Shown here: positions 725-64,000 of the stretch, piece after piece
Layout: the number at the start of each line of letters is the position of its first letter
Position numbering within the stretch: position 1 is the first letter of the stretch
Assembly (NCBI GenBank): GCA_020073605.1
Contig: JAIQEW010000011.1
Span: 186,001 to 250,000 of the forward strand
Direction: 5' to 3'
Source: Terriglobia bacterium
Lineage (GTDB): Bacteria; Acidobacteriota; Terriglobia; Acidiferrales; UBA7541
Length of the DNA: 64,000 nt
Made by a program: the position numbers and the translations under genes
Notes under the pieces: model-generated
The model's input: the letters and a program-made list of their open reading frames with translations, nothing else
Database searches by the model: none
What the model was told of the DNA's origin: nothing

Positions 725-1803
725 GGCCGGACCACCCCTTCGATCACGTCCACGATCTCCTCGACGGCTCTCGGTCGTGCGAGCGCGCGGGCGCGGTCTT
801 CCATCTCTTGAATTCTCCGGGGCTGGTCCAGGAGGGAGAAAATCTCGTCTGTCAGGCGTTCGGGCGTCAGCTCTTCTTGAGGCAGCAGCCGGGCCGCGCC
901 CGCGCTTTGCATGGCTTGCGCGTTGCGGGTCTGGTGCGCGTCTGTCGAGGCCCCGAAGGGGATAAAGATGGCGGCGCGTCCGGAGGCCGATACCTCCGCG
1001 ACAGTGATTGCGCCCGACCTGCAAACGATCAGGTCGGCTTGAGCAAACCTCTCCGCCATATTTTCGATGAAGGGGACGACCTCCGCCTGAAATTGGCGAC
1101 GTGCATAAGCCACTCGCACGGCATTATAGTCGCGTTCGCCAGTCTGATGCACGATGAAAAGCTGGTTTTTTCGCGCGGCCAGGCGGTCGAGCGAATCGAC
1201 CACCGCACGGTTGATGGGTAGCGCGCCGCGGCTCCCGCCCGTGATCAGCAGGTTGAACGGCGCGCGATGCTCCCTGGGCGGCGCGCCGAAAAACTCTTTT
1301 CGCACGGGGCATCCGGTGACGACTGCCTTACGGCCGAGGCGTATCGCGGTTTCCTGGTTTGCGACGGCGATCCGCGTCGCCAGCCGCGCGAGCACGCGGT
1401 TCGTGAATCCCGGCTCGACGTTCGGCTCGAAGACCACGCTCGGGATCCGATGCAGCACGGCCAGCAGCATCATCGGTCCGGAAGCGTACCCGCCGACGCC
1501 GAACGCAGCGCCGAAGCGATGCCTGCGAAGGATTTTCTCCGAGTCCCACAGACCCGCCGGAAGCATCGCCATATTGCGCAGCAGCTTTGCGCCGCCGATG
1601 CCTTTGAGGCCCGCCACGCGGATCGTCTCGAGCGGCATCCCGGCCTGCGGCACGAGCCGCGCTTCCATTCCGCGCTCGGTTCCCACAAACACGACGCTTC
1701 GATCTCCCCGCCGCAGCCATTCCCGCGCGACGGCCAGCGCCGGAAAAACGTGCCCGCCCGTGCCGCCGCCTGCAATCAATAGACTGTTCGCATCCGCGCT
1801 CAC
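721..1803 (-). CDS. murG: UDP-N-acetylglucosamine--MurNAc-pentapeptide-PP-undecaprenol GlcNAc transferase MurG
   Basis: Peripheral membrane GT28 glycosyltransferase that converts lipid I to lipid II at the inner face of the membrane. The 360-residue length is normal. The N-terminal [15 protein letters not shown] loop, the central [13 protein letters not shown] motif and the C-terminal [14 protein letters not shown] and TDAHQTRNA motifs that bind UDP-GlcNAc are all visible. It overlaps ftsW by 4 nt at its start and murC by 4 nt at its end, so it sits in a tightly coupled operon. Confidence 0.97.
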
Positions 1804-2909
1804 GTCTCATCCGCGTGCTGGCTGATGTTCAACAGCACGCCGGTTGCCAGCAGCATTCCGAGCAGGCTCGAGCCTCCGTAGCTGATGAACGGCAGCGGAA
1901 TGCCCTTGGTCGGCAGCAGGCCGAGCACGACGCTCAGATTGATCAGCGCCTGCCCCACGACCATCGCCGTGATCCCGATTCCCAAAAACTTCCCGAATGC
2001 GTCCGGCGCCTTCATCGCGGCCACGAACCCGCGCCAGCCGTACACCGCAAAAAGCGTCAGCACGATCGCCGCGCCGATGAATCCAATCTCTTCGCAGATC
2101 ACCGAAAAGATGAAATCGGTATGCGCCTCGGGCAGAAAGAACAGCTTCTGGCGGCTCTCCATCAAGCCGACGCCGGTAAATCCTCCCGAACCCACCGCGA
2201 TCAGCGACTGCGCCAGTTGAAACCCGTGCCCTTGCGGGTCAGCCCCCGGCGAGAGAAACGCCTCCACGCGCTGCAAGCGATACGGCGTGCTCGCGATCGC
2301 GATGTAGATCAGCGGCACGGCCGCGAGCGCCGCTCCGGCGATATAGCGGTACGAAAGGCCGGCGATAAAGAGCATCACGGCCGCGATGAAGAAAATCATG
2401 CAGGCCGTGCCCAGGTCCGGCTCCTTGTAAACCAGCCCCACCATCAGCAGCACCGTGCCGACCGCCGGCAGAAGTGTGCGCGTCACGTTATTGACGCCCG
2501 GGCCGCGCGGCTCGCGGCGCACTTCCAGGAACCACGCGAGGTAGAAGATCACCACGAGCTTCGCCAGCTCCGAGGGTTGCAGGCCCAGCGGCCCCATGCG
2601 AATCCAGCGGTGCGTTGCGTGCGACCGGTCCAGGAAAAACACGGCGATCAGCATCACCAGCGTCACCGAGAGCGCCGTGAAAATCACGCGCGGCTGGCGC
2701 AGCTTGCGGTAGTCCGTGTTCATCAGCCCGAACATCCCGGCGATCCCGAGCACGATCCAGAGAAGCTGGCGGATCAAGAAATAGTATCCGTTGCCGTACC
2801 CTTCCCGCGCCGTGATGGCCGAAGCGCTGAACACCATCACCGCGCCGATCAGGCACAGCGCCAGGGTCACGCCGAACAACTGACGATCGTGCTGTACGCT
2901 CCGGGGCAT
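1800..2909 (-). CDS. ftsW: Lipid II polymerase FtsW (SEDS family)
   Basis: Polytopic SEDS-family glycosyltransferase that polymerises septal peptidoglycan from lipid II together with its cognate class B PBP, FtsI. The 369-residue protein has about ten hydrophobic segments, beginning near residue 12 (LFGVTLALCLIGAVMVFSAS). The C-terminal ISYGGSSLLGMLLATG segment is the FtsW/RodA/SpoVE signature. Its position between murD and murG, in the same operon as ftsI, favours FtsW over RodA. The start follows the murD stop by 3 nt. Confidence 0.95.
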   Translation of the reverse strand: MPRSVQHDRQLFGVTLALCLIGAVMVFSASAITAREGYGNGYYFLIRQLLWIVLGIAGMFGLMNTDYRKLRQPRVIFTALSVTLVMLIAVFFLDRSHATHRWIRMGPLGLQPSELAKLVVIFYLAWFLEVRREPRGPGVNNVTRTLLPAVGTVLLMVGLVYKEPDLGTACMIFFIAAVMLFIAGLSYRYIAGAALAAVPLIYIAIASTPYRLQRVEAFLSPGADPQGHGFQLAQSLIAVGSGGFTGVGLMESRQKLFFLPEAHTDFIFSVICEEIGFIGAAIVLTLFAVYGWRGFVAAMKAPDAFGKFLGIGITAMVVGQALINLSVVLGLLPTKGIPLPFISYGGSSLLGMLLATGVLLNISQHADET

Positions 2910-2912
2910 CCC

Positions 2913-4307
2913 TTATCCTTTCCGCGCGGAAGCAGGCGCGGCCGACTGACTTTCGAGCTTTCCGACGAGCTCCTTGAACGCACGCCCGCGATGCTCGTAA
3001 TTCTCAAACTGATCGAAGCTCGAGCACGCCGGCGCGAGCAGCACCACGTCGCCGGGCCGCGCGCGGTCGCTCGCGATCTGTATCGCGCGTTCGAGCGTGC
3101 GAGCGTTTTCAACCACCACTGCGTCGCCCAAATCGGCGGCGATCTTTTCAGCAGCGGCGCCGATCACCAGCACCATCCGCGCCCGCTCCCGCAGCGGCTC
3201 CTTCAGAGGCGTGTACGGGCTGCCCTTGTCCTTGCCGCCCAGAATGACGATCAGCGGTCCGGGAAACGCCTCGATGGCTTTAAGCGCCGCGTCCACGTTC
3301 GTGGCCTTCGAATCGTTGTAGAACTTCACGCCGGCGACCTCGGCTACGAATTCCAGGCGGTGCTCGACGCCGCGAAACGTCTTCACGCCGGTCGCAATTG
3401 CCGCGGGTGTCGCGCCCGCGAGGTACGCAGCCGCGCACGCCGCCAGCACGTTTTCGACGTTGTGCTCGCCGCGCAACGGAATTTCGTCGCGCCGCCCCAG
3501 CGCCACTTCCGATCCGTCGTTGCGAAACACGATCTGGCCATCCCGCAGATATGCCCCCTGGGCCACTTGCTTCTGCCGGCTGAACCAGAAGACTTGAGGC
3601 CGCGCGGGCATCCTGCGCGTCACCTCGGGATCGTCCGCGTTGAGCACGGCGATATCGCGCTCGAGCTGGTTTTCGAACAGGCGCACCTTCGTGGCCGCGT
3701 ACTCCTCGAACGACGCGTGGCGGTCGAGATGGTCGGGCGTCAGGTTCAGCAGCACGCCGATCTCCGGCCGGAACTTCTCGATCGACTCGAGTTGAAAGCT
3801 GCTGATCTCGGCGACCGTGACGCTCGAATCCGTCGAGGACTCGACGAGCGAAAGCAGCGGCACGCCGATATTGCCGCCGACAAGCGTTGGAATTCCCGCG
3901 CCCGCCAGGATGTGCGCCACAAGCGACGTCGTGGTCGTCTTGCCGTTCGATCCTGTGATCGCCACCAGCTTCCCACGCAGAAACCGCCACGCAAGTTCGA
4001 CCTCGCCCCAGACGGGAACTGCGGCAAGGTGCGCCAGCACGAGCGCCGGCAGATTGGCCGGCACGCCCGGGCTCACGACGATCAAATCCTGATCGAGAAA
4101 CGCTGCGGCCGGATGCCCCCCTAGTTCCAGCTTCACGCCCGCCGCGCGCAGCTTCGCGGCCGTCTCGGCGAGCTCGCTCTCCGGCTTTTCGTCCGTGGCT
4201 GTCACGGTCGCCCCATAGCCCGCGGCGAAAAGCGACACGGCCACACCCGTCCGCGCGAGCCCCACCACCAGCACGCGCTTGCCTGCAAGATCGAATCCGG
4301 GTCTCAC
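2913..4307 (-). CDS. murD: UDP-N-acetylmuramoyl-L-alanine--D-glutamate ligase MurD
   Basis: ATP-dependent cytoplasmic ligase that adds D-Glu to UDP-MurNAc-L-Ala. The 464 residues show the N-terminal Rossmann-like domain (GKRVLVVGLARTGVAVS), the Mur-ligase P-loop ITGSNGKTTTTSLVAHIL near residue 115, a central LNLTPDHLDRH motif and the C-terminal domain with YNDSKATN and ILGGKDKG. These are the expected order and length for MurD. It lies 6 nt after mraY and 3 nt before ftsW. Confidence 0.97.
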   Translation of the reverse strand: MRPGFDLAGKRVLVVGLARTGVAVSLFAAGYGATVTATDEKPESELAETAAKLRAAGVKLELGGHPAAAFLDQDLIVVSPGVPANLPALVLAHLAAVPVWGEVELAWRFLRGKLVAITGSNGKTTTTSLVAHILAGAGIPTLVGGNIGVPLLSLVESSTDSSVTVAEISSFQLESIEKFRPEIGVLLNLTPDHLDRHASFEEYAATKVRLFENQLERDIAVLNADDPEVTRRMPARPQVFWFSRQKQVAQGAYLRDGQIVFRNDGSEVALGRRDEIPLRGEHNVENVLAACAAAYLAGATPAAIATGVKTFRGVEHRLEFVAEVAGVKFYNDSKATNVDAALKAIEAFPGPLIVILGGKDKGSPYTPLKEPLRERARMVLVIGAAAEKIAADLGDAVVVENARTLERAIQIASDRARPGDVVLLAPACSSFDQFENYEHRGRAFKELVGKLESQSAAPASARKG

Positions 4308-53282: not shown

Positions 53283-53352
53283 GGTCTCTCCTCCCCAAGC
53301 AAATCACAGCAAACCATCCCGAAGCATCGGGACCATCGGAGGAATCGCAAAA

Positions 53353-53676
53353 ATGGCCGTTAACATCACACCGCTACACGACCGCGTGCTCGTGCGGCGG
53401 CTGGAAGAGAAGGAATCCGTGAAGGGCGGCATCATCATCCCCGACACGGCCAAAGAGAAGCCGCAAGAGGGCGAAGTGATCGCAGTCGGCCTCGGCAAGC
53501 TGAATGACAAGGGCGAGCGCATCCCACTCGACGTGAGGGCGGGCGACCGTGTTCTATTCGGCAAGTACAGCGGCAACGACATCAAGATCGACGACGAGGA
53601 ATTCATGATCCTGAAGGAAGACGAGATCCTCGCAAAACTCGGCGGCGCGGCGAAAGCGGCCGGCGGCAAAAAGTAA
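53353..53676 (+). CDS. groES: Co-chaperonin GroES
   Basis: Heptameric lid of the GroEL chaperonin. 107 residues, slightly longer than the usual 95-100 because of a Lys/Ala/Gly-rich tail. [33 protein letters not shown] (mobile loop) and [16 protein letters not shown] are typical. It is controlled by the CIRCE promoter 70-120 nt upstream and is followed by groEL after 110 nt. Confidence 0.97.
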
Positions 53677-53762
53677 CTTCCGCCTGCGTCCGCCACAATC
53701 GGCGGACTACGGCGGACACGGTCCGGGCGCCCGCCAAGGCGGGCCACGGAAAACCATCCTAA

Positions 53763-55433
<1,671 letters not shown>

Positions 55434-55461
55434 GCCTTCCCCGCAAAACCGAATCAAATGC

Positions 55462-55508
55462 AAAAGGGCGTCCCGATGCAATCCGTTGGGGCGCCCTCAT
55501 CTTTTTCG
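55462..55508 (+). terminator. Rho-independent terminator after groEL
   Basis: Stem AGGGCGTCCC/GGGGCGCCCT around a short loop, then CATCTTTTTC. Its first 32 bases match 58716-58747 next to the transposase gene with one mismatch. Confidence 0.75.
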
Positions 55509-55567: not shown

Positions 55568-56362
55568 CTAAAGCTGAGCCGTGCAGATACTCTCGCCCTC
55601 GCGCCAAAACTTCAATTTAACACTCGCAGTCGCTTGAGTGCTTTGGTCGATTAAAGTGATGTCAACCCGGTCATAGCCAGTAAGCTCAAAGTGCTCGATA
55701 TAGGAAAAGCCTTCGGCGTAAAACTTATCTCGATTGTCGGTCCTCCTGTCCTCGAAAGTCATGAACTCACCGTCCAGGTCACACAACAGAACGAGTTCGC
55801 GTGTGTCGCCAATTCCCACATCGGTGCAGTTGACGGGCGAATTGAGCCAAACGCCATAGTCTATGTCGCGTTCGGTTGCTCCGTTCTTGTGTCTGAATTT
55901 CAGTTTGGCGATGACATTTAAGGCATCGGTGATTCTCTCGCCGCCGACAGAAACTCTGTTTTCAAACTTGACCACGAGGGCGTGAACCGCAGTCTTTCGC
56001 TGTTCTTCGGTAATCGGATCGCAAATGCCGTTCGCCGGCCATGGGCTCACAAACACGTCTTTTCGTCTCGACCCCGCGTATTCGAGATTTGGACGCTCTT
56101 GTTTGCTCTTCGTTGCGCGAATAACAGGGGGCGTGGCAACCGCGTGACCTATGTGGATTTGATCTGCGTGGAACGTTTGCGTTGCGACAGGTGAGTGGTC
56201 CAAAGCCGAACGCGTGATTTCGGTAGTCGATTTGGATTCGTGCTTGGACTCTTTCCGCGACGTTAGACGTTGAACGATTATAGCGACGATCAGCACGCCG
56301 ATCCCACTGAAAACCCATTGGTAGTTCTGGGAAAACCAATGGACTAGCTTCTCGTATTCCAT
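55568..56362 (-). CDS. Membrane-anchored protein, unknown
   Basis: 264 residues from the ATG at 56362 (MEYEKLVHWFSQNYQWVFSG). One TM helix at about 17-33 (VFSGIGVLIVAIIVQRL) is followed by a basic linker. The C-terminal two thirds are soluble, with GVWLNSPVNCTDVGIGDTRELVLLCDLDG and repeated short beta-like stretches. I do not recognise the family. A TTG at 56386 is an alternative start. Base composition is visibly lower in GC than the core genes, consistent with accessory DNA. It lies 34 nt after the small membrane gene on the same strand. Confidence 0.6.
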   Translation of the reverse strand: MEYEKLVHWFSQNYQWVFSGIGVLIVAIIVQRLTSRKESKHESKSTTEITRSALDHSPVATQTFHADQIHIGHAVATPPVIRATKSKQERPNLEYAGSRRKDVFVSPWPANGICDPITEEQRKTAVHALVVKFENRVSVGGERITDALNVIAKLKFRHKNGATERDIDYGVWLNSPVNCTDVGIGDTRELVLLCDLDGEFMTFEDRRTDNRDKFYAEGFSYIEHFELTGYDRVDITLIDQSTQATASVKLKFWREGESICTAQL

Positions 56363-56396
56363 ATTTTCAAGAAGGCCGAACCACAACAGGGTCGCC

Positions 56397-57746: not shown

Positions 57747-57813
57747 ATGCCGGGCTAAAGTACCCGGCGCTACGTTGGAATCTTCAAGAAAGAGTCTAAG
57801 CAGGGCGCGGCGG
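57747..57813 (+). repeat. 67-bp direct repeat, left copy
   Basis: Identical to 63282-63348 except for one base (T at 57761, G in the right copy). It begins ATGCCGGGCTAAAG, includes an inverted REP unit (57749-57776), continues TTGGAATCTTCAAGAAAG and ends GGGCGCGGCGG. The two copies bound a 5.6-kb segment with the RAYT and NACHT genes. Confidence 0.85.
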
Positions 57814-57845
57814 TCCCGCAGGAGCATCCGGGACGCACAAAACGC

Positions 57846-57865
57846 GCATGGGCGGCATGTACTAA
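57846..57865 (+). repeat. Copy of the groEL 3' end
   Basis: 20 bases identical to 55414-55433, the last codons and stop of groEL (GCATGGGCGGC then ATGTACTAA). A shorter, related string (GCATGGGAGGCATG) is at 63255-63268. Confidence 0.65.
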
Positions 57866-57898
57866 ACGCCTCGTCCGACGGTTTGGACGTAGGTTTAA

Positions 57899-57994
57899 AC
57901 GTAGCGCCGGGTCCTTTAGCCCGGCACAAAGGGCGGCCAATCGGCCGCCCTTTGCATTTCAGGTTTAGACGTAGCGCCGGGTCCTTTGCCCGGC
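57899..57994 (+). repeat. REP units (two, plus strand) with GGGCGGCC hairpin
   Basis: CGTAGCGCCGGGTCCTTTAG-type units at 57899-57925 and 57969-57994, each a hairpin of GCCGGG and CCCGGC arms. Between them, at 57928-57953, AAAGGGCGGCC pairs with GGCCGCCCTTT across a 4-nt loop, forming a possible terminator. The same units flank the transposase gene downstream. Confidence 0.75.
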
Positions 57995-58130
57995 ATGTTT
58001 TGCGTCCGTAGTTCTACGTCTTGCCCGCCTCGCGAACCTGCGCTAGAAGAATCAATCGCAACGCCGCGCTCTTCGGCGCGGCACTTTGTTCTCGGCCTCT
58101 AATATGGCGGCATAAACGGGAAACCGCTCC

Positions 58131-58156
58131 CGGGCTAAAGGACCCGGCGCTACGTT
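58131..58156 (-). repeat. REP unit (inverted) directly before the transposase gene
   Basis: CGGGCTAAAGGACCCGGCGC followed by TACGTT, the reverse complement of the unit at 58687-58712. It ends 7 nt before the transposase start codon, so the gene has a REP unit on each side in opposite orientation. Confidence 0.8.
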
Positions 58157-58163
58157 CAGGTCT

Positions 58164-58679
58164 ATGGCTGAATTTGCGCGCAAAAACATCCGCCTGCCCG
58201 CGGAACGATACCTGGGACGCCAACTCTACTTCGTTACGCTTTGCTTCCACCACCGGCGTCGCTTCGGTGCGAACGCACGGATCGCACGCTGGCTCATCGA
58301 CGAACTCCGCACACATGCCGCGGCGTGCGAGTTCTTCGTTCACGTCTTTTGCGTCATGCCCGACCACGTCCACATCCTCGTGGCTGGCGCATCGGAAACC
58401 AGCAACATGATGGCATTCGTGATGTCGTTCAAACAGAAAACCTCATCGGAATTCGCCCGCAGGACGCACCGCCCGTTGTGGCAATTCAAATATTACGACC
58501 ATATTCTCCGCGCCAGGGATTCTGCCGACCGCGTGGCGTGGTACATCTGGTCGAATCCGGTGCGAAAAGGCCTCTGCGCCACACCGATCGATTATCCGTT
58601 TCTCGGATCGTTCACCGAGATGGGCGCGAGGATGTTGAAAGGTTCCATGGTCGCCGGATGGACGCCACCATGGAAATAG
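58164..58679 (+). CDS. REP-associated tyrosine transposase (RAYT, Y1/IS200-like)
   Basis: 171-residue single-domain nuclease of the TnpA-REP family. The N-terminal LPAERYLGRQLYFVTLCFHHRRR, the metal-binding HUH motif as HVH in VMPDHVHILV, and the candidate nucleophilic Tyr in LWQFKYYDHILR are present, followed by VAWYIWSNPVRKGL, which is characteristic of RAYTs. RAYTs are domesticated relatives of IS200 transposases that mobilise or process REP palindromes. Inverted REP units lie 7 nt upstream and 8 nt downstream of this gene. It appears intact. Confidence 0.9.
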   Translation: MAEFARKNIRLPAERYLGRQLYFVTLCFHHRRRFGANARIARWLIDELRTHAAACEFFVHVFCVMPDHVHILVAGASETSNMMAFVMSFKQKTSSEFARRTHRPLWQFKYYDHILRARDSADRVAWYIWSNPVRKGLCATPIDYPFLGSFTEMGARMLKGSMVAGWTPPWK

Positions 58680-58686
58680 GTTTACG

Positions 58687-58809
58687 CGTAGCGCCGGGTC
58701 CTTTAGCCCGGCACAAAAAGGGCGTCCCGATGCAATCCGTCGGGGCGGCCAATCGGCCCCGCCCTTTGCATTTCAGGTCTAAACGTAGCGCCGGGTCCTT
58801 TAGCCCGGC
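58687..58809 (+). repeat. REP units (two, plus strand) after the transposase gene
   Basis: Units at 58687-58712 and 58784-58809 read CGTAGCGCCGGGTCCTTTAG then CCCGGC. Each is followed by CACAAAA and a GGGCGTC hairpin. The segment 58716-58747 is the near-copy of the groEL terminator. Confidence 0.8.
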
Positions 58810-58811
58810 AC

Positions 58812-58852
58812 AAAAGGGCGTCTCGACGCGATCCGTCGGGGCGCCCTTTTTT
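58812..58852 (+). terminator. Strong Rho-independent terminator (REP-linked)
   Basis: AAAAGGGCGTCTCGACG pairs with CGTCGGGGCGCCCTTTTTT around a CGATC loop, giving a long stem followed by six T. It also works in reverse because the left arm begins AAAA. It would end the transposase transcript. Confidence 0.75.
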
Positions 58853-58915
58853 CTTTTGCCTTTGTAGCGGCCACCCCTTTTACCCTGAGGCCTCGCCATT
58901 GGCGAGACCGAACGG

Positions 58916-58951
58916 GCTTGCACTAAAGTCGCCCCGGCGACCGAACGTGTC
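58916..58951 (+). repeat. GACCGAACGTGTC-type repeat, copy 2
   Basis: Counterpart of 57597-57632, in the same orientation, on the other side of the transposase gene. Confidence 0.55.
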
Positions 58952-59096
58952 GCGAACTATGCGTCCGCCGCTTTCTGGCGGGAGGCGGGCGCTTTTGCCG
59001 CGCGGACGCTCGATGTGAAATTCAGACTCCCTACCCTCGCAAGAGAGGACAGGGTACCGGGAAACTATGCGTCCTCCGATGTGGGGCCGGGTGATG

Positions 59097-62000
59097 TCAG
59101 TGGCTGAACCAGTGATCTCTGTCCGCGATGTCGGCGACCGGAACCGTCCGCCTTGCAACCTCAATTCTGTACCTGTCTACGGCAGGGTTAACGAGATAGC
59201 TAGGATAATCGGTAGGAGAGTCCAGAATCTTCTCAGCAATTGAGACAGGCATCGGCTTTTGTTTTTCACGCCTCCTACTGTCAATGCGATACGGCATGTA
59301 CGGGTTCGATTCTCCCAACGCGTAGCATTGTCGGATCACTTCAAGATTTGGATTCCATTTGTCGGTACCGAAGTGGTTTAGGTCGAGCGCGTATCTAACA
59401 GCAAACTCCAGCACCTGCGGTTCCGCGTCGAGTCGTTTCTGTAAGCATTTTCGGTAAACCAGCATCGCTGTGTGATCGCCTCCTCTCAGGGCCAGGACAC
59501 AGGCCATCCGCGCTGAGATGCTTGCTGGAATGTCCGACGTCTTCAAAGGAACAACCTTGTGACCTTTTACCCTCCTAGGTAGTTGGCACTCTTCTGCGGT
59601 GTCGTATATCCAGGTCCAGTCCTTCGTTCGGAATGCGTCTAAGAGTTCGCCGACACGTCCGGAGTGCTGGGCAAGCACTTTCGGATCTGCCAGCGCCACC
59701 ATAACCATGCACACAAAGCGGCGGTCTTCGTTCGTTGACGTGGAGCTTAGCTGGTTCGCCCAATAGTTCGGATCATCCGCTCGACGTGACCCGAAGAGCA
59801 CACGCTGACAAAGGGGGCGCGTCTTGTCTATGAGGTCGGGGGAGTCAGAGGTTCTGTCGCGTTGTACGACATATGTCGACAGTACGGCCAGATGTTGCCA
59901 TTTCTTGGTTTCTCCCCACAGATTCCTACCCGTTTCCACAATTGTATTCCAAGGTTGCAGATCGGTGGTCCAATCGAGATCTTGACGAACTCGTTCCCGA
60001 TCGACGACTTCCACAAAATGCTTGCATTTGGGATAGTTGACGTATGATTCCGTGCCCTTTGACAGCGGGAGCGTATCAGGATCTAGCTCGAGTCCATAGT
60101 ATCTACTTATTGCCTGATTCAGTCCTCCGGGGCCTCTATGCATGTATGCGCTTTGGTAGAGTGTGGGGCTAGCCGCGTAGCAAAAGCTGCCGAGAATAGA
60201 TTTCACGGACGGCCCGCGATACGGTAGTTGAATACTCCCGTTCAGAGTTTCATCGACGGCCGCGTCAAACTTGCTCTCACTATCCTCCAAGAAATCAAAC
60301 CTGCCAGATTGGCACAAAGACTGGATGGCGTCGACATCGTGTTCTGCAGAGGGAAAGAGGCTGTTGACATCGCTGAGGGCGAGCGTCGGCAACACCTTGA
60401 GCACTAATCCATGCTCCAACCACGTTTTTCGCCTACTAGGCGAGCTGCTTCTGAAATGGTGAATCCACTTCGAAGACAGGTCGTCTGGGGATTCCGAGTT
60501 TAAGTTGAGGAACCGCAAAAGGTCCGAAACAAGGCCTTTCGGATGATACTTTTCCAGGAATACAAAGCATCGATCTATTAATTCCTCTCTACCACATTTT
60601 GCGGGAAGCGGGGGAAGATGTCTAAACTCGCGCCCACGTCGGATGTCAGAGTTTAGAGCCAACAATCGACGGAACCCCTTGGGCTCAAACAGAAGATCAA
60701 CTACTTGGTGAACCGATCTGGGATTTTGATTGAAAACCCAATCCGCGAGGAGCGTAATGGCTAGCTCTCTTGGGTCGGAGATTCGGTCGTACCCCTCCTC
60801 GGCTGATAGAGCCTGTATCCTCTCAACGAGGGAAGGCAGCTCACCTTTGCTGTAGCATCCCGCGTAGAATCTCGTGACGTTTAACCAGTAGAAATTCCTC
60901 GCAATCGCGTCGAAACGGTCCGGGCGCGGTCCGGGCTTCTCTTTTCCTGGAGACGAATGAGGAGCGGTGTAGAACAGGAAGCACGCGGCGAAGTACTCCC
61001 TGAGTGGCTGTACTTCGAATTCGAAAGTCCCTTGGACTCTTGATACGAGGGCCACGACGCGCTCCACCATGCCCGTAAAAAGCTGGTCCGCAAGCGTTGG
61101 ATCGTATCCCTCCTTGCGTAGATAGTCAGCCACCACCGTTTGCAGGCGATCCTGTGAGATGCTTGCCCGTGCTTTCCCCTTCTCCGACTCCGAATGAAGG
61201 AGCCAGGCCAAATATCTGTGGAGTTCCACCAACAAGTCGCGGTGTTCCCGAACAACGGAGCTCTTTTCGGATTCGCGATTAAAGAAGAGCTCCATATAGA
61301 AGTCATAGAGCGCCGTTCTCTTGTCTGGCAAGGAAGAGCCCCGCGTAAGGATAAGGCTGAGCAAGATCGCAAGTTGCATCGGGTTTCTCGCCAAATCTCG
61401 AAGATGCGGTTGTTCCAACTTCGATTCCAAAACCTGCCGAAACTCCGTTCTTAACTTCTTGTCGAGACGCCGAGCGGCCATCCAGAGTTCCGCGTAACGC
61501 AGAATCAACTCGGGAGAAAGGGCAACCAGTTGCAGATATGTGTATTCCTTTTCCGGCATGCCGGGAGAGTTGGCGAATGCGGCGGGCCGGCTGGTTACGA
61601 TCGTTTGCAGTGATGCAGAGTTTTGCGCAAGCCTCTTGACTCCCTCTGCGATTTCACTCACCACGTTTCTCCGGGTAGGGATGTCGGCCACCTCGTCCAG
61701 ACCATCGAAAACGAGCAGAAGAGCGCTAATGCGGGCAACCGCGAGGAGGTCATCCGCGCTGAAACTGGTGCCACCGGACTGGTGGCTGATAAGAAAGGCG
61801 AGGAACCCCTCTAGCGATCTGCGTTGACCCACGATTGCATGATCGGATTCCTTGACGAACGGGTTCCTTCCCGCCAGCCAGGTAGCAAAATCTCGCAGGT
61901 CAACTCGTATCGGGAGTCTGACCGGGACATCGCGATGCTGAGGAGGTATGCTTGCCAGTGCCGCGGACATTTGCAGCAGTTTCATCCGGTGAACTTGGCA

Positions 62001-62903
62001 AATGTATTGCGCCACCGTCGATTTGCCTTGTCCCGGCGCGCCTTCGAGAACGACCTTCGGAAAGCGGGATGCGGTACGACGGCGTAGCAGAAAGGCTGCC
62101 GCCCCCACCGGTTCGTCTTCGCGTACTGCGGAATGGAATTGGAGGGCGTAGTTCTGCGCGCTATCTGCTTCTGCGTAGTCGAAATTATCGCTGAACTGAA
62201 TCGGCGTCTGCGACGCTTCGCGAAAGTGTTTTGCAAATTCTCCATCCCGCGGTAAAAGCGGAACGTCAATGAATAGCTCGAGAAGTTTGTTCTGGAGCTC
62301 GACTTGTTTAAAGCGCACCTCCTCGTCGACTTCATACTGTTGTCGAAGAAATGCCAAGATCGACGAAGTTCGGCGCTCGCGATGTTCACTCAGGCCCGAT
62401 TCGACGATCGCTCTCAGTATGTCGGGACCTGACATTAGTTCTGGGTAGACCCATTTCAGCGACCACGTGATGTCTAGCCGTCTGTTGACGTCATCTCGCC
62501 ACCAGCACATGGCTGGTACTTTGAGGTGCTCGCTGAGGATCTCATTTACTTTATCTATGCTTCCACTTTCGAGGTGCCCTGTACCGGGGACGTTTGTCAG
62601 AAGGTAGTATCCGCGGGCGCCCTTTGGTATGAGCTTCGAGAGTTTTGGCGCCTCCTCTTTAACAATTCCCAGAAGCCACTTGTGGGGATCTGGTTCGGCA
62701 AGCGGCTTGTGGAGAAACTTGACTTGATAGACTGAAAACGGCGCCGATTTCTTAGCACGCATGGCTCTAACAGCGTCCCGGCCACCATCAGCTTGTCCGA
62801 TAGGAAAGCATTGCATGTCAGGGTGCTCCCTAGCGAGCAACGACTGACACAGCTGCTGGAATCGGTCCGGGCCAAGATTTTCTAGAGGATAGTCCACAGA
62901 CAT
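59097..62903 (-). CDS. Nuclease-NACHT NTPase fusion, probable NLR-like anti-phage protein
   Basis: 1268 residues. Residues 1-150 look like an Mrr/PD-(D/E)XK nuclease domain: LENLGPDRFQQLCQSLL, then GQADGGRDA (D39/D43) and YQVKF (Q60-x-K62), the order of catalytic residues in that fold. Residues about 280-600 are a NACHT-type STAND NTPase with Walker A EGAPGQGKSTVAQYI (K294, S295) and extended Walker B LLLVFDGLDEVAD (D400, D403/E404). The remaining 660 residues have no motif I can name and would be the sensor. This order (effector, NTPase, sensor) matches Avs and bNACHT defence proteins. It is a single gene of lower GC inside the island; no partner gene is adjacent. The ligand is unknown. Confidence 0.8.
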   Translation of the reverse strand: MSVDYPLENLGPDRFQQLCQSLLAREHPDMQCFPIGQADGGRDAVRAMRAKKSAPFSVYQVKFLHKPLAEPDPHKWLLGIVKEEAPKLSKLIPKGARGYYLLTNVPGTGHLESGSIDKVNEILSEHLKVPAMCWWRDDVNRRLDITWSLKWVYPELMSGPDILRAIVESGLSEHRERRTSSILAFLRQQYEVDEEVRFKQVELQNKLLELFIDVPLLPRDGEFAKHFREASQTPIQFSDNFDYAEADSAQNYALQFHSAVREDEPVGAAAFLLRRRTASRFPKVVLEGAPGQGKSTVAQYICQVHRMKLLQMSAALASIPPQHRDVPVRLPIRVDLRDFATWLAGRNPFVKESDHAIVGQRRSLEGFLAFLISHQSGGTSFSADDLLAVARISALLLVFDGLDEVADIPTRRNVVSEIAEGVKRLAQNSASLQTIVTSRPAAFANSPGMPEKEYTYLQLVALSPELILRYAELWMAARRLDKKLRTEFRQVLESKLEQPHLRDLARNPMQLAILLSLILTRGSSLPDKRTALYDFYMELFFNRESEKSSVVREHRDLLVELHRYLAWLLHSESEKGKARASISQDRLQTVVADYLRKEGYDPTLADQLFTGMVERVVALVSRVQGTFEFEVQPLREYFAACFLFYTAPHSSPGKEKPGPRPDRFDAIARNFYWLNVTRFYAGCYSKGELPSLVERIQALSAEEGYDRISDPRELAITLLADWVFNQNPRSVHQVVDLLFEPKGFRRLLALNSDIRRGREFRHLPPLPAKCGREELIDRCFVFLEKYHPKGLVSDLLRFLNLNSESPDDLSSKWIHHFRSSSPSRRKTWLEHGLVLKVLPTLALSDVNSLFPSAEHDVDAIQSLCQSGRFDFLEDSESKFDAAVDETLNGSIQLPYRGPSVKSILGSFCYAASPTLYQSAYMHRGPGGLNQAISRYYGLELDPDTLPLSKGTESYVNYPKCKHFVEVVDRERVRQDLDWTTDLQPWNTIVETGRNLWGETKKWQHLAVLSTYVVQRDRTSDSPDLIDKTRPLCQRVLFGSRRADDPNYWANQLSSTSTNEDRRFVCMVMVALADPKVLAQHSGRVGELLDAFRTKDWTWIYDTAEECQLPRRVKGHKVVPLKTSDIPASISARMACVLALRGGDHTAMLVYRKCLQKRLDAEPQVLEFAVRYALDLNHFGTDKWNPNLEVIRQCYALGESNPYMPYRIDSRRREKQKPMPVSIAEKILDSPTDYPSYLVNPAVDRYRIEVARRTVPVADIADRDHWFSH

Positions 62904-63122
62904 TTCCTATTCAGAGGGAAGGCGGGTGGCCCAGGCTTTCGCGTTTCTGGACACTCGGCTCGCTCACGAACACCGCAGGGCATGATACCATCGCGGCACT
63001 TCACTTGAGGGTACGTTGTTGCGGGTGCCGCATGCTCGGTTTGTGAGCGTGGGGATTTTCGGTCTTCTGTCATGCCGAAACGCGTTGAATGCATCTACAA
63101 AAAGCACGAACCGGAGGACCAT

Positions 63123-63148
63123 GCCGCGCTAAAGAACGCGGCGCTACG
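63123..63148 (-). repeat. REP-like unit with compensated stem
   Basis: GCCGCGCTAAAGAACGCGGC then GCTACG. Compared with the usual GCCGGGCTAAAGGACCCGGC form, both arms have changed together (GGG/CCC to GCG/CGC), which preserves the hairpin. Confidence 0.6.
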
Positions 63149-63156
63149 AAGGCAAC

Positions 63157-63202
63157 AGCAGGTCCCTCGTCGGCCAGAGTGCGGCCTCGCTCGGGATGAC
63201 AA
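63157..63202 (-). repeat. 46-bp interspersed repeat, copy B
   Basis: Reverse complement of 29872-29917 with three mismatches. See the entry at 29872. Confidence 0.75.
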
Positions 63203-63281
63203 CGTAAAGAGAAGACGCCCTCCTTCCGCCGAGGGCGGCGGATGCACAATTCGCGCATGGGAGGCATGCGCCACTAGAAAG

Positions 63282-63348
63282 ATGCCGGGCTAAAGGACCC
63301 GGCGCTACGTTGGAATCTTCAAGAAAGAGTCTAAGCAGGGCGCGGCGG
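63282..63348 (+). repeat. 67-bp direct repeat, right copy
   Basis: Same sequence and orientation as 57747-57813 with one mismatch. It includes an inverted REP unit (63284-63311). It ends 33 nt before the MarR gene stop. Confidence 0.85.
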
Positions 63349-63381: not shown

Positions 63382-63933
63382 TTACTCGTCCACATCCTCG
63401 AGCGTGATCTCCTTGATAAATTTCAAGAAATCTCCCTCGCGCAGCTTCCGGCAAAGCTCGATCAATGTTCCCTGTTGCCGGTAGCTGAGGACGCGCATAT
63501 GCGCCTTCGCCACCTTCGCCTGATGCGGCACCACGCTCTCGACGAACTTCGCGCCCGCCGGCGTCAGGCTTACCATGCCGATTCGCCGTCCCTCCCTCCG
63601 TTTCCCTCGAAGAGCGATCGGTATGCGGCTTTCCCTGGTCGGCCGAAGCGGAAGCGTCACGATTTCCTGGCGCACGCATCCCGATTTCTCCAGGCTAAGG
63701 ATCGTGGCCGCCATATTCGCCCGCTCGCGCATGCGTCGCTCGGCGGCCTTCACGATGCTCATCGGACCTTCGCGGTGCAGCATCAAGAGCAGCCGGAATT
63801 CCTCGGTCGTGATGCCGAACGTTTCGAGCGGACCCCGCAGCTCCTTCCGGATCCAGTCCGCCGTGTCCACCAGATCGAGATAGGCCGCGAAAGCTCGCTG
63901 CGTCTTCTCTTTTTGCCTCGGCCGGTCGCTCAT
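63382..63933 (-). CDS. MarR-family transcriptional regulator
   Basis: 183 residues from the ATG at 63933 (MSDRPRQKEKTQRAF). The winged-helix region has FGITTEEFRLLLMLHREGPMSIVKAAER and MAATILSLEKSGCVRQE, then a wing with RIGMVSLTPAGAKFV. The last pattern is the MarR D/GxRxxxxxLTxxG signature. The dimerisation helices are at both ends. The ligand and target genes are unknown. Upstream, an alternative ATG at 63951 is in frame. Confidence 0.85.
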   Translation of the reverse strand: MSDRPRQKEKTQRAFAAYLDLVDTADWIRKELRGPLETFGITTEEFRLLLMLHREGPMSIVKAAERRMRERANMAATILSLEKSGCVRQEIVTLPLRPTRESRIPIALRGKRREGRRIGMVSLTPAGAKFVESVVPHQAKVAKAHMRVLSYRQQGTLIELCRKLREGDFLKFIKEITLEDVDE

Positions 63934-64000
63934 CCACAAAAGGCTACACAAAAGCTCGCCTTTTGGGGGTTTTCATCCCCGTAAAGACGGCTTATGGGAG

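Follow-up and report, generated by a model that had tools for sequence, protein, structure and literature searches.

The nuclease-NACHT gene and its product

We analysed a 64,000-nt window from a Terriglobia bacterium (GCA_020073605.1, contig JAIQEW010000011.1, positions 186,001 to 250,000 of the forward strand). The gene under study is an open reading frame (ORF) on the minus strand at 59097-62903, uninterrupted over 1268 amino acids (aa). Its product, the query, is predicted to join an N-terminal nuclease to a switch of the NACHT type and to end in a long helical region. When its own genome was searched with the query, one match was found, at G000:C8. The gene and the segments of its product are as follows.

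59097-62903, minus strand: nuclease-NACHT-helical-array protein, single gene, intact, 1268 aa (ORF translation)
62439-62903, minus strand: predicted effector, residues 1-155, PD-(D/E)XK (Mrr/Avs4-like) nuclease with D39-G-G-R-D43, Q60-V-K62 and E84
62064-62438, minus strand: linker, residues 156-280, partly helical, kept in HNH-bearing relatives (module profile E 2e-11 to 6e-12 in L032, L033 and L036)
61524-62063, minus strand: NACHT nucleotide-binding domain, residues 281-460, with G288-x4-G293-K294-S295-T296, D400-x2-D403-E404 and R439 (Pfam PF05729 and alignment)
60954-61523, minus strand: residues 461-650, helical and presumed winged-helix section of the NACHT module, containing FEFEVQPLREYFAA; conservation within the family is highest here (column conservation and module profiles)
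60414-60953, minus strand: C1, start of the predicted helical array, residues 651-830; found in HNH relatives and unmatched in most of the sister group (module profiles, model)
59904-60413, minus strand: C2, residues 831-1000, where variability is highest; candidate surface for recognition (conservation, pair identity)
59100-59903, minus strand: C3, residues 1001-1268, helices of the C-terminus; variable apart from the conserved end, W1265/F1266 (conservation, profiles, model)

The family alignment comprised the query and 80 relatives of at least 1050 aa whose match started by query residue 60, a rule that excluded the HNH-bearing relatives. A relative was encoded in 205 of 346 candidate genome-contig stretches, and the best 80 were kept (L037-L116); 71 of these 80 genome loci entered the alignment, alongside eight loci from plasmids and one from a viral contig.

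The N-terminal domain was predicted by a confident structure model to have the PD-(D/E)XK nuclease fold, with the alpha-beta-beta-beta-alpha-beta core of that superfamily. A structure search with the model gave the Avs4 effector as the best match, followed mostly by restriction endonucleases. The active-site residues, acidic plus (Q/E)xK, were present. D43 was kept in 79 of 79 rows (2 gapped), D39 in 78 of 79, and Q60 and K62 in all 81. The N-terminal profile found no match among PDB sequences. As a PD-(D/E)XK nuclease, the domain would cleave DNA in a metal-dependent way.

Pfam recognised the NACHT domain (PF05729, 30.2 bits, cut-off 26.7, E 4.9e-7), and K294, D400, D403, E404 and R439 were kept in 81/81 rows. 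Most of the best conserved columns lay in residues 460-660, where 43 columns reached at least 0.9. These included the motif FxFEVQxLREYFAA, which we take to resemble the closing stretch of NLR NACHT modules. Beyond NACHT, the query was not named by Pfam, by NCBIfam (matches far under cut-off) or by PADLOC.

The C-terminus, about 620 aa past the NACHT/winged-helix core, was modelled confidently as all-helical (predicted local distance difference test score 91.5, predicted template modelling score 0.90). A helical array is a common kind of receptor surface. Pfam found no family in this part of the query. C2 held 0 columns at 0.9 or above, and its mean identity in 51 close pairs was 49%, versus 76-81% in the NACHT module; by these measures, the C-terminus is fast-evolving. 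In PDB, the query sequence found nothing better than E 0.37. The family profile gave three weak matches there, two of them to NLR-family entries (E 0.21 and 0.58), and no Avs chain at E ≤1.

A preliminary description of the gene had named D39, D43, Q60-x-K62, K294, D400 and D403/E404 in the ORF at 59097-62903. The ORF and all of these residues lie where it placed them, and the residues are nearly or fully invariant in the alignment. Its nuclease at residues 1-150 agrees with the predicted fold and with the Avs4 match, and its NACHT-like NTPase core with a Pfam score above cut-off and invariant Walker residues. Among the things that would count against it, it had named a non-nuclease N-terminus together with a core not of the STAND type; a nuclease fold was predicted and the core is NACHT/STAND. 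The C-terminus, which it gave as about 660 residues without known motifs, indeed has no Pfam family, and its length is corrected here to about 620 aa in a predicted helical array.

Exchange of the two ends of the protein

We ran the seven segment profiles on relatives outside the alignment. Three actinobacterial plasmid proteins (L032, L033 and L036) matched the nucleotide-binding domain (3e-45 to 1e-48), residues 461-650 (E 1e-56 to 1e-60) and C1 (6e-25 to 1e-27), and gave no nuclease-segment match. C3 was matched in two of the three (3e-24 and 1e-22) and C2 in none; L032 is just 891 aa long. The alignment placed an HNH-like motif at the N-terminus of all three. For L033, Pfam HNH_2 gave E 8.1e-4, just under cut-off, and residues 2-119 matched the PADLOC models 'Effector Endonuclease' (E 1.2e-23) and SAVED_HNH (E 2.5e-21). 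We take these effector names to denote the CBASS / HNH-SAVED type. The HNH of L033 resembles the HNH effectors of that type but is fused to the linker, NACHT and a helical C-terminus, whereas the query has PD-(D/E)XK instead.

The converse was seen in 13 sister-group proteins (L005, L034, L179-L184 and L186-L190). They matched the nuclease, the nucleotide-binding domain and residues 461-650 and did not match C2 or C3; C1 was matched weakly in two (L182 and L187). Five of them (L005, L179, L180, L186 and L187) are about 1180-1333 aa long and therefore have another C-terminus; the others are 712-1027 aa. Eight more distant NACHT proteins of the Acidobacteriota phylum (L003, L004, L007, L008, L009, L011, L013 and L023) matched the nucleotide-binding domain, seven of the eight also residues 461-650, and nothing else.

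Since the HNH relatives swap the head and the sister-group proteins swap the tail, the two ends change separately, as in NLR-like receptors. That one core carries two unrelated types of DNase suggests that its output is to cut DNA; this swap of one DNase type for another is the best evidence for such an output from sequence.

Distribution of the family

The 71 relatives in the tree belong, by record title, to eleven phyla: Actinomycetota (28), Pseudomonadota (20), Bacteroidota (8), Cyanobacteriota (5), Chloroflexota (3), Bacillota (2) and one each of Acidobacteriota, Spirochaetota, Myxococcota, Thermodesulfobacteriota and Rhodothermota. Many of the source records are metagenome bins. The FastTree tree, which gave long-branch warnings and served for naming phyla alone, clustered the phylum labels (14 changes versus a shuffled mean of 37.8). 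The closest relative among those kept was a Bryobacterales protein, 50% identical to the query.

Within the genus, a match was found in 1 of 20 genomes, the gene's own; the other 19 are drafts, 55-96% complete. Across the phylum, 19 of 396 genomes matched at E ≤0.001, full length in the own genome alone, and the match of L005 spanned query residues 4-682. Of the genomes of 101 relatives, four matched, again full length in the own genome alone. In the family Streptomycetaceae, 13 of 200 genomes matched the core at E ≤1e-30. Six of these matches belong to the protein family, with C3 unmatched in one, six are sister-group proteins and one is a fragment. Among plasmids, tblastn matches were found in 42 of 72,556 records, and at no single site did they span 80% of the query. 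Of five IMG/VR loci, L117 was full-length, L120 and L121 matched the nuclease and nucleotide-binding segments alone and were too short to judge, and L118 and L119 seem to be the genes already counted as L086 and L105 (equal ORF lengths and scores). The L117 contig carries a terminase large subunit at 1279-3249 (phrog_9, E 2.8e-117); the family member lies some 5 kb away from it and is probably a prophage-borne copy. The distribution is patchy and partly mobile.

Two family copies, L077 and L080, 75% identical, lie about 18 kb apart on one Arenicellales chromosome (OY282380.1). In L046, L051, L083, L094 and L101, the reading frame of the family member is broken within the contig. These breaks may be sequencing errors or genuine inactivation; the latter would fit a costly gene.

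Comparison with known defence systems

The nuclease-STAND defence protein is a kind already established. Avs1-4 respond to conserved proteins of phages, and their nucleases then cut the DNA of both phage and host; Avs5 is a STAND protein whose poorly conserved C-terminal repeat domain is required for sensing (PMC12931631). The effector of Avs5 is a Sir2 NADase, whereas that of the query is a predicted nuclease. Avs4 (AVAST type 4; an entry of 1534 residues, bound to a phage portal according to its title) is like the query in the fold predicted for the N-terminal nuclease. The structural match, at 13% identity, is confined to the effector. Avs4 was not among the matches listed for the C-terminal model search, which excludes nothing, and PADLOC, in which the range of Avs models is unverified, gave IetA alone (E 0.051).

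The query also has the effector-NACHT-sensor layout of bNACHT proteins, with a presumed sensor (layout per PMC12169576). In bNACHT25 (WP_001702659.1) and bNACHT32 (clade 6), an N-terminal PD-(D/E)XK DNase is required for phage protection, and in bNACHT25 this domain is needed for DNA degradation upon infection (PMC12169576). The query shares the NACHT module and the predicted N-terminal PD-(D/E)XK with these two proteins, a likeness drawn from their published descriptions. Clade 6 has an NCH1 C-terminus, whereas the query has no Pfam family there. No NACHT C-terminal family was among the 25 of 37 families listed for 75 members; the Pfam copy used has NNH2 (NACHT N-terminal helical), and the presence of NCH1 in it is unverified. 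The family of the query may already be part of a bNACHT clade in the literature. Further NACHT-containing and PD-(D/E)XK systems have been validated in E. coli with DefensePredictor (PMC13092281).

The first part of EruA (NF058535, 'NACHT domain-containing antiphage protein') was matched by the relative L053 at 20.1 bits (E 1.5e-4; cut-off 1000 bits), and PADLOC PDC-S73 had weak, mostly N-terminal matches in L189 (E 2.6e-10), L005 (E 5.8e-7) and L025 (E 3.2e-6). Neither model matched the query at E ≤1. A literature search on bNACHT, NACHT-nuclease, EruA and Avs4, with subscription papers outside its scope, found no title on the query's family, and we make no claim that the family is unreported.

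NACHT modules are thought to be bacterial in origin and to have been acquired later by eukaryotes (PMC12169576). For proteins of the NACHT type, what triggers them is the hardest thing to find out. With the same switch, two unrelated DNase heads and different tails in eleven phyla, the family offers a natural experiment on C-terminal sensing and on the exchangeability of the head.

Proposed function and alternatives

We consider it likely that the gene encodes a self-contained STAND (NLR-like) immune switch that ends infection by cutting DNA. This reading was built on the predicted nuclease fold, the invariant residues, the NACHT NTPase, the helical C-terminus, the conservation, the exchange of the ends and the patchy distribution, all obtained in silico. 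At rest, the C-terminal helical array would hold the NACHT NTPase in a closed state. Once it recognised a molecule derived from, or altered by, an invader, the array would release the NACHT module, which would then bind ATP and assemble into an oligomer. The oligomer would bring the N-terminal PD-(D/E)XK domains together to cut DNA, host and invader alike, and the cutting would kill or arrest the cell and so end the infection. This scheme was drawn by analogy with bNACHT25 and Avs1-4, and we infer invader sensing, oligomerisation, DNA cleavage and the abortive outcome from those systems.

The preliminary description had likewise seen an Avs/bNACHT-like single protein. The nuclease, the NACHT core, the long helical C-terminus and the exchange of the ends support this layout, but the frequent location in defence islands that it expected was not observed. 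We compared up to five nearest ORFs in each of 30 loci (149 ORFs) with 150 ORFs about 64-96 kb away on the same contigs. Fifty loci had long enough flanks, the 30 were picked for long contigs, and the ORFs came from a greedy longest-ORF script without a gene caller. At E 1e-10, PADLOC found 29 families near the gene versus 18 in the control. Among the 25 of 29 listed, the near-gene families had at most two members each and included capP, MTase_II, PglX, RmrA, Ppl, capH and AriA; in the control, mad3 had four members, mad8 three and the others one each, including DrmD and other helicases. No Pfam family occurred in more than 3 of the 149 neighbouring ORFs. Since no recurring partner gene was seen, the gene probably forms a complete system by itself.

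Several results weigh against the immune-switch reading. The survey gave no excess of known defence genes near family genes, none of 50,697 phage records was matched, the N-terminus of the query itself has no Pfam match, and PADLOC does not name the query, its best match being IetA. In addition, the C-terminal model had no significant PDB match, and the putative sensor role of the C-terminus therefore rests on analogy.

A more specific version of the immune switch is put forward only tentatively. The family may form a set of unnamed, cross-phylum, single-gene receptors in which a PD-(D/E)XK or CBASS-type HNH effector and the sensor are swapped independently round a NACHT-winged-helix core. The 620-residue, fast-evolving array would then be a new sensor, with a trigger other than terminase, portal, or coat protein via DnaJ; that the trigger could be new had been suggested in the preliminary description.

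The same switch may instead target plasmids and other mobile elements rather than phages in particular, or serve mobile elements in competition with one another. We regard this as rather unlikely. It is favoured by the 42 plasmid records with family matches, by integrase or conjugation genes near several plasmid copies, and by Phage_integrase and DDE_Tnp_1, each found in 3 of the 149 neighbouring ORFs and absent from the 25 of 95 control families listed. However, large plasmids may just carry the gene, and the 80 kept loci are genome contigs in which chromosome and plasmid are unsorted. A modification-dependent or NTP-gated restriction enzyme, in which the C-terminal array would bind DNA or modified DNA directly and NACHT would gate the Mrr-like nuclease, seems improbable to us. 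A general stress or developmental cell-death switch with no anti-invader role is the least credible: the missing defence-gene enrichment and the position about 3.7 kb from groEL in the own genome would suit it, but the gene is missing from 12 congener groEL stretches and, because no match was found in the 19 congeners and no full-length one in any other of the 396 phylum genomes, it is not a housekeeping gene.

A few individual neighbours, recorded in addition to the survey, are suggestive. AbiE genes adjoin the Mycobacterium gordonae plasmid copy, a SIR2-family gene adjoins a Rhodococcus HNH copy, and an Abi-family gene adjoins the R. fascians copy. The sister protein L186 (1320 aa, annotated 'hypothetical') lies on the Klebsiella variicola plasmid NZ_CP044049.1, where a phage exclusion gene of the Lit family is 2.6 kb away and a TerB-domain gene follows farther along.

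Local setting of the gene

The following features surround the nuclease-NACHT gene in the window.

53353-55433, plus strand: groES-groEL, left edge, kept in congeners (congener comparison)
57747-58814, no strand: REP-like (repetitive extragenic palindromic) repeats, left flank (repeat comparison)
58164-58679, plus strand: Y1_Tnp protein adjoining the gene (Pfam PF01797, E 4.3e-8)
63121-63348, no strand: REP-like repeats as on the left flank, right flank (repeat comparison)
63382-63951, minus strand: MarR-type regulator, where the variable stretch probably ends on the right (relatives near groEL in 4 congeners)

The gene had been described as lying among repeats, in lower-GC DNA and beside a RAYT, presumably the Y1_Tnp protein. 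REP-like repeats were found on both flanks, and its GC content is 0.536 against 0.62 for the window. At third codon positions (GC3), the value is 0.591 for the nuclease-NACHT gene, 0.854 for groEL and 0.779 for the MarR-type gene. A 25-nt REP-like repeat has 13 copies genome-wide (≤2 mismatches), 6 of them within 5.6 kb at window positions 57750-63309. The flanking 67-nt copies at 63282-63348 and 57747-57813 are 99% identical, and recombination between them could have moved or inverted the stretch. The Y1_Tnp protein is probably unrelated to the function of the nuclease-NACHT gene.

In the window, groEL and the gene that we take, by resemblance, to be MarR-type are convergent and 8 kb apart. 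Between them lie the nuclease-NACHT gene, the Y1_Tnp protein, two smaller minus-strand ORFs and the REP-like repeats. In four congeners (G004, G018, G014 and G002), MarR-type relatives (39-59% identical, orthology unestablished) follow groEL at a distance of 0.4-2.2 kb and share its orientation. The opposite orientation in the window makes a local inversion possible. None of the intervening ORFs of the window, including the nuclease-NACHT gene, was present in 12 congener groEL stretches (2.4-10.5 kb each), and 8 of the 12 also had no MarR-type match. The nuclease-NACHT gene was probably acquired at a site that varies between genomes.

We also considered a chaperone link, given groES-groEL nearby and bNACHT25, which reportedly depends on DnaJ. 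This idea was dropped, as the 12 congener groEL stretches do not hold the gene; no chaperone was among the 25 of 105 Pfam families listed for the neighbours of relatives.

An antisense open frame of 725 aa (53304-55481, minus strand) runs across groEL and misleads longest-ORF gene picking. Because it was included in the greedy ORF list, the GC3 ranking from that list was set aside. A 272-aa protein at 55568-56386 (minus strand), without a Pfam match, sits in the same low-GC stretch (GC3 0.597), and its residues 16-58 match the PADLOC candidate PDC-M43A (E 6.7e-6).

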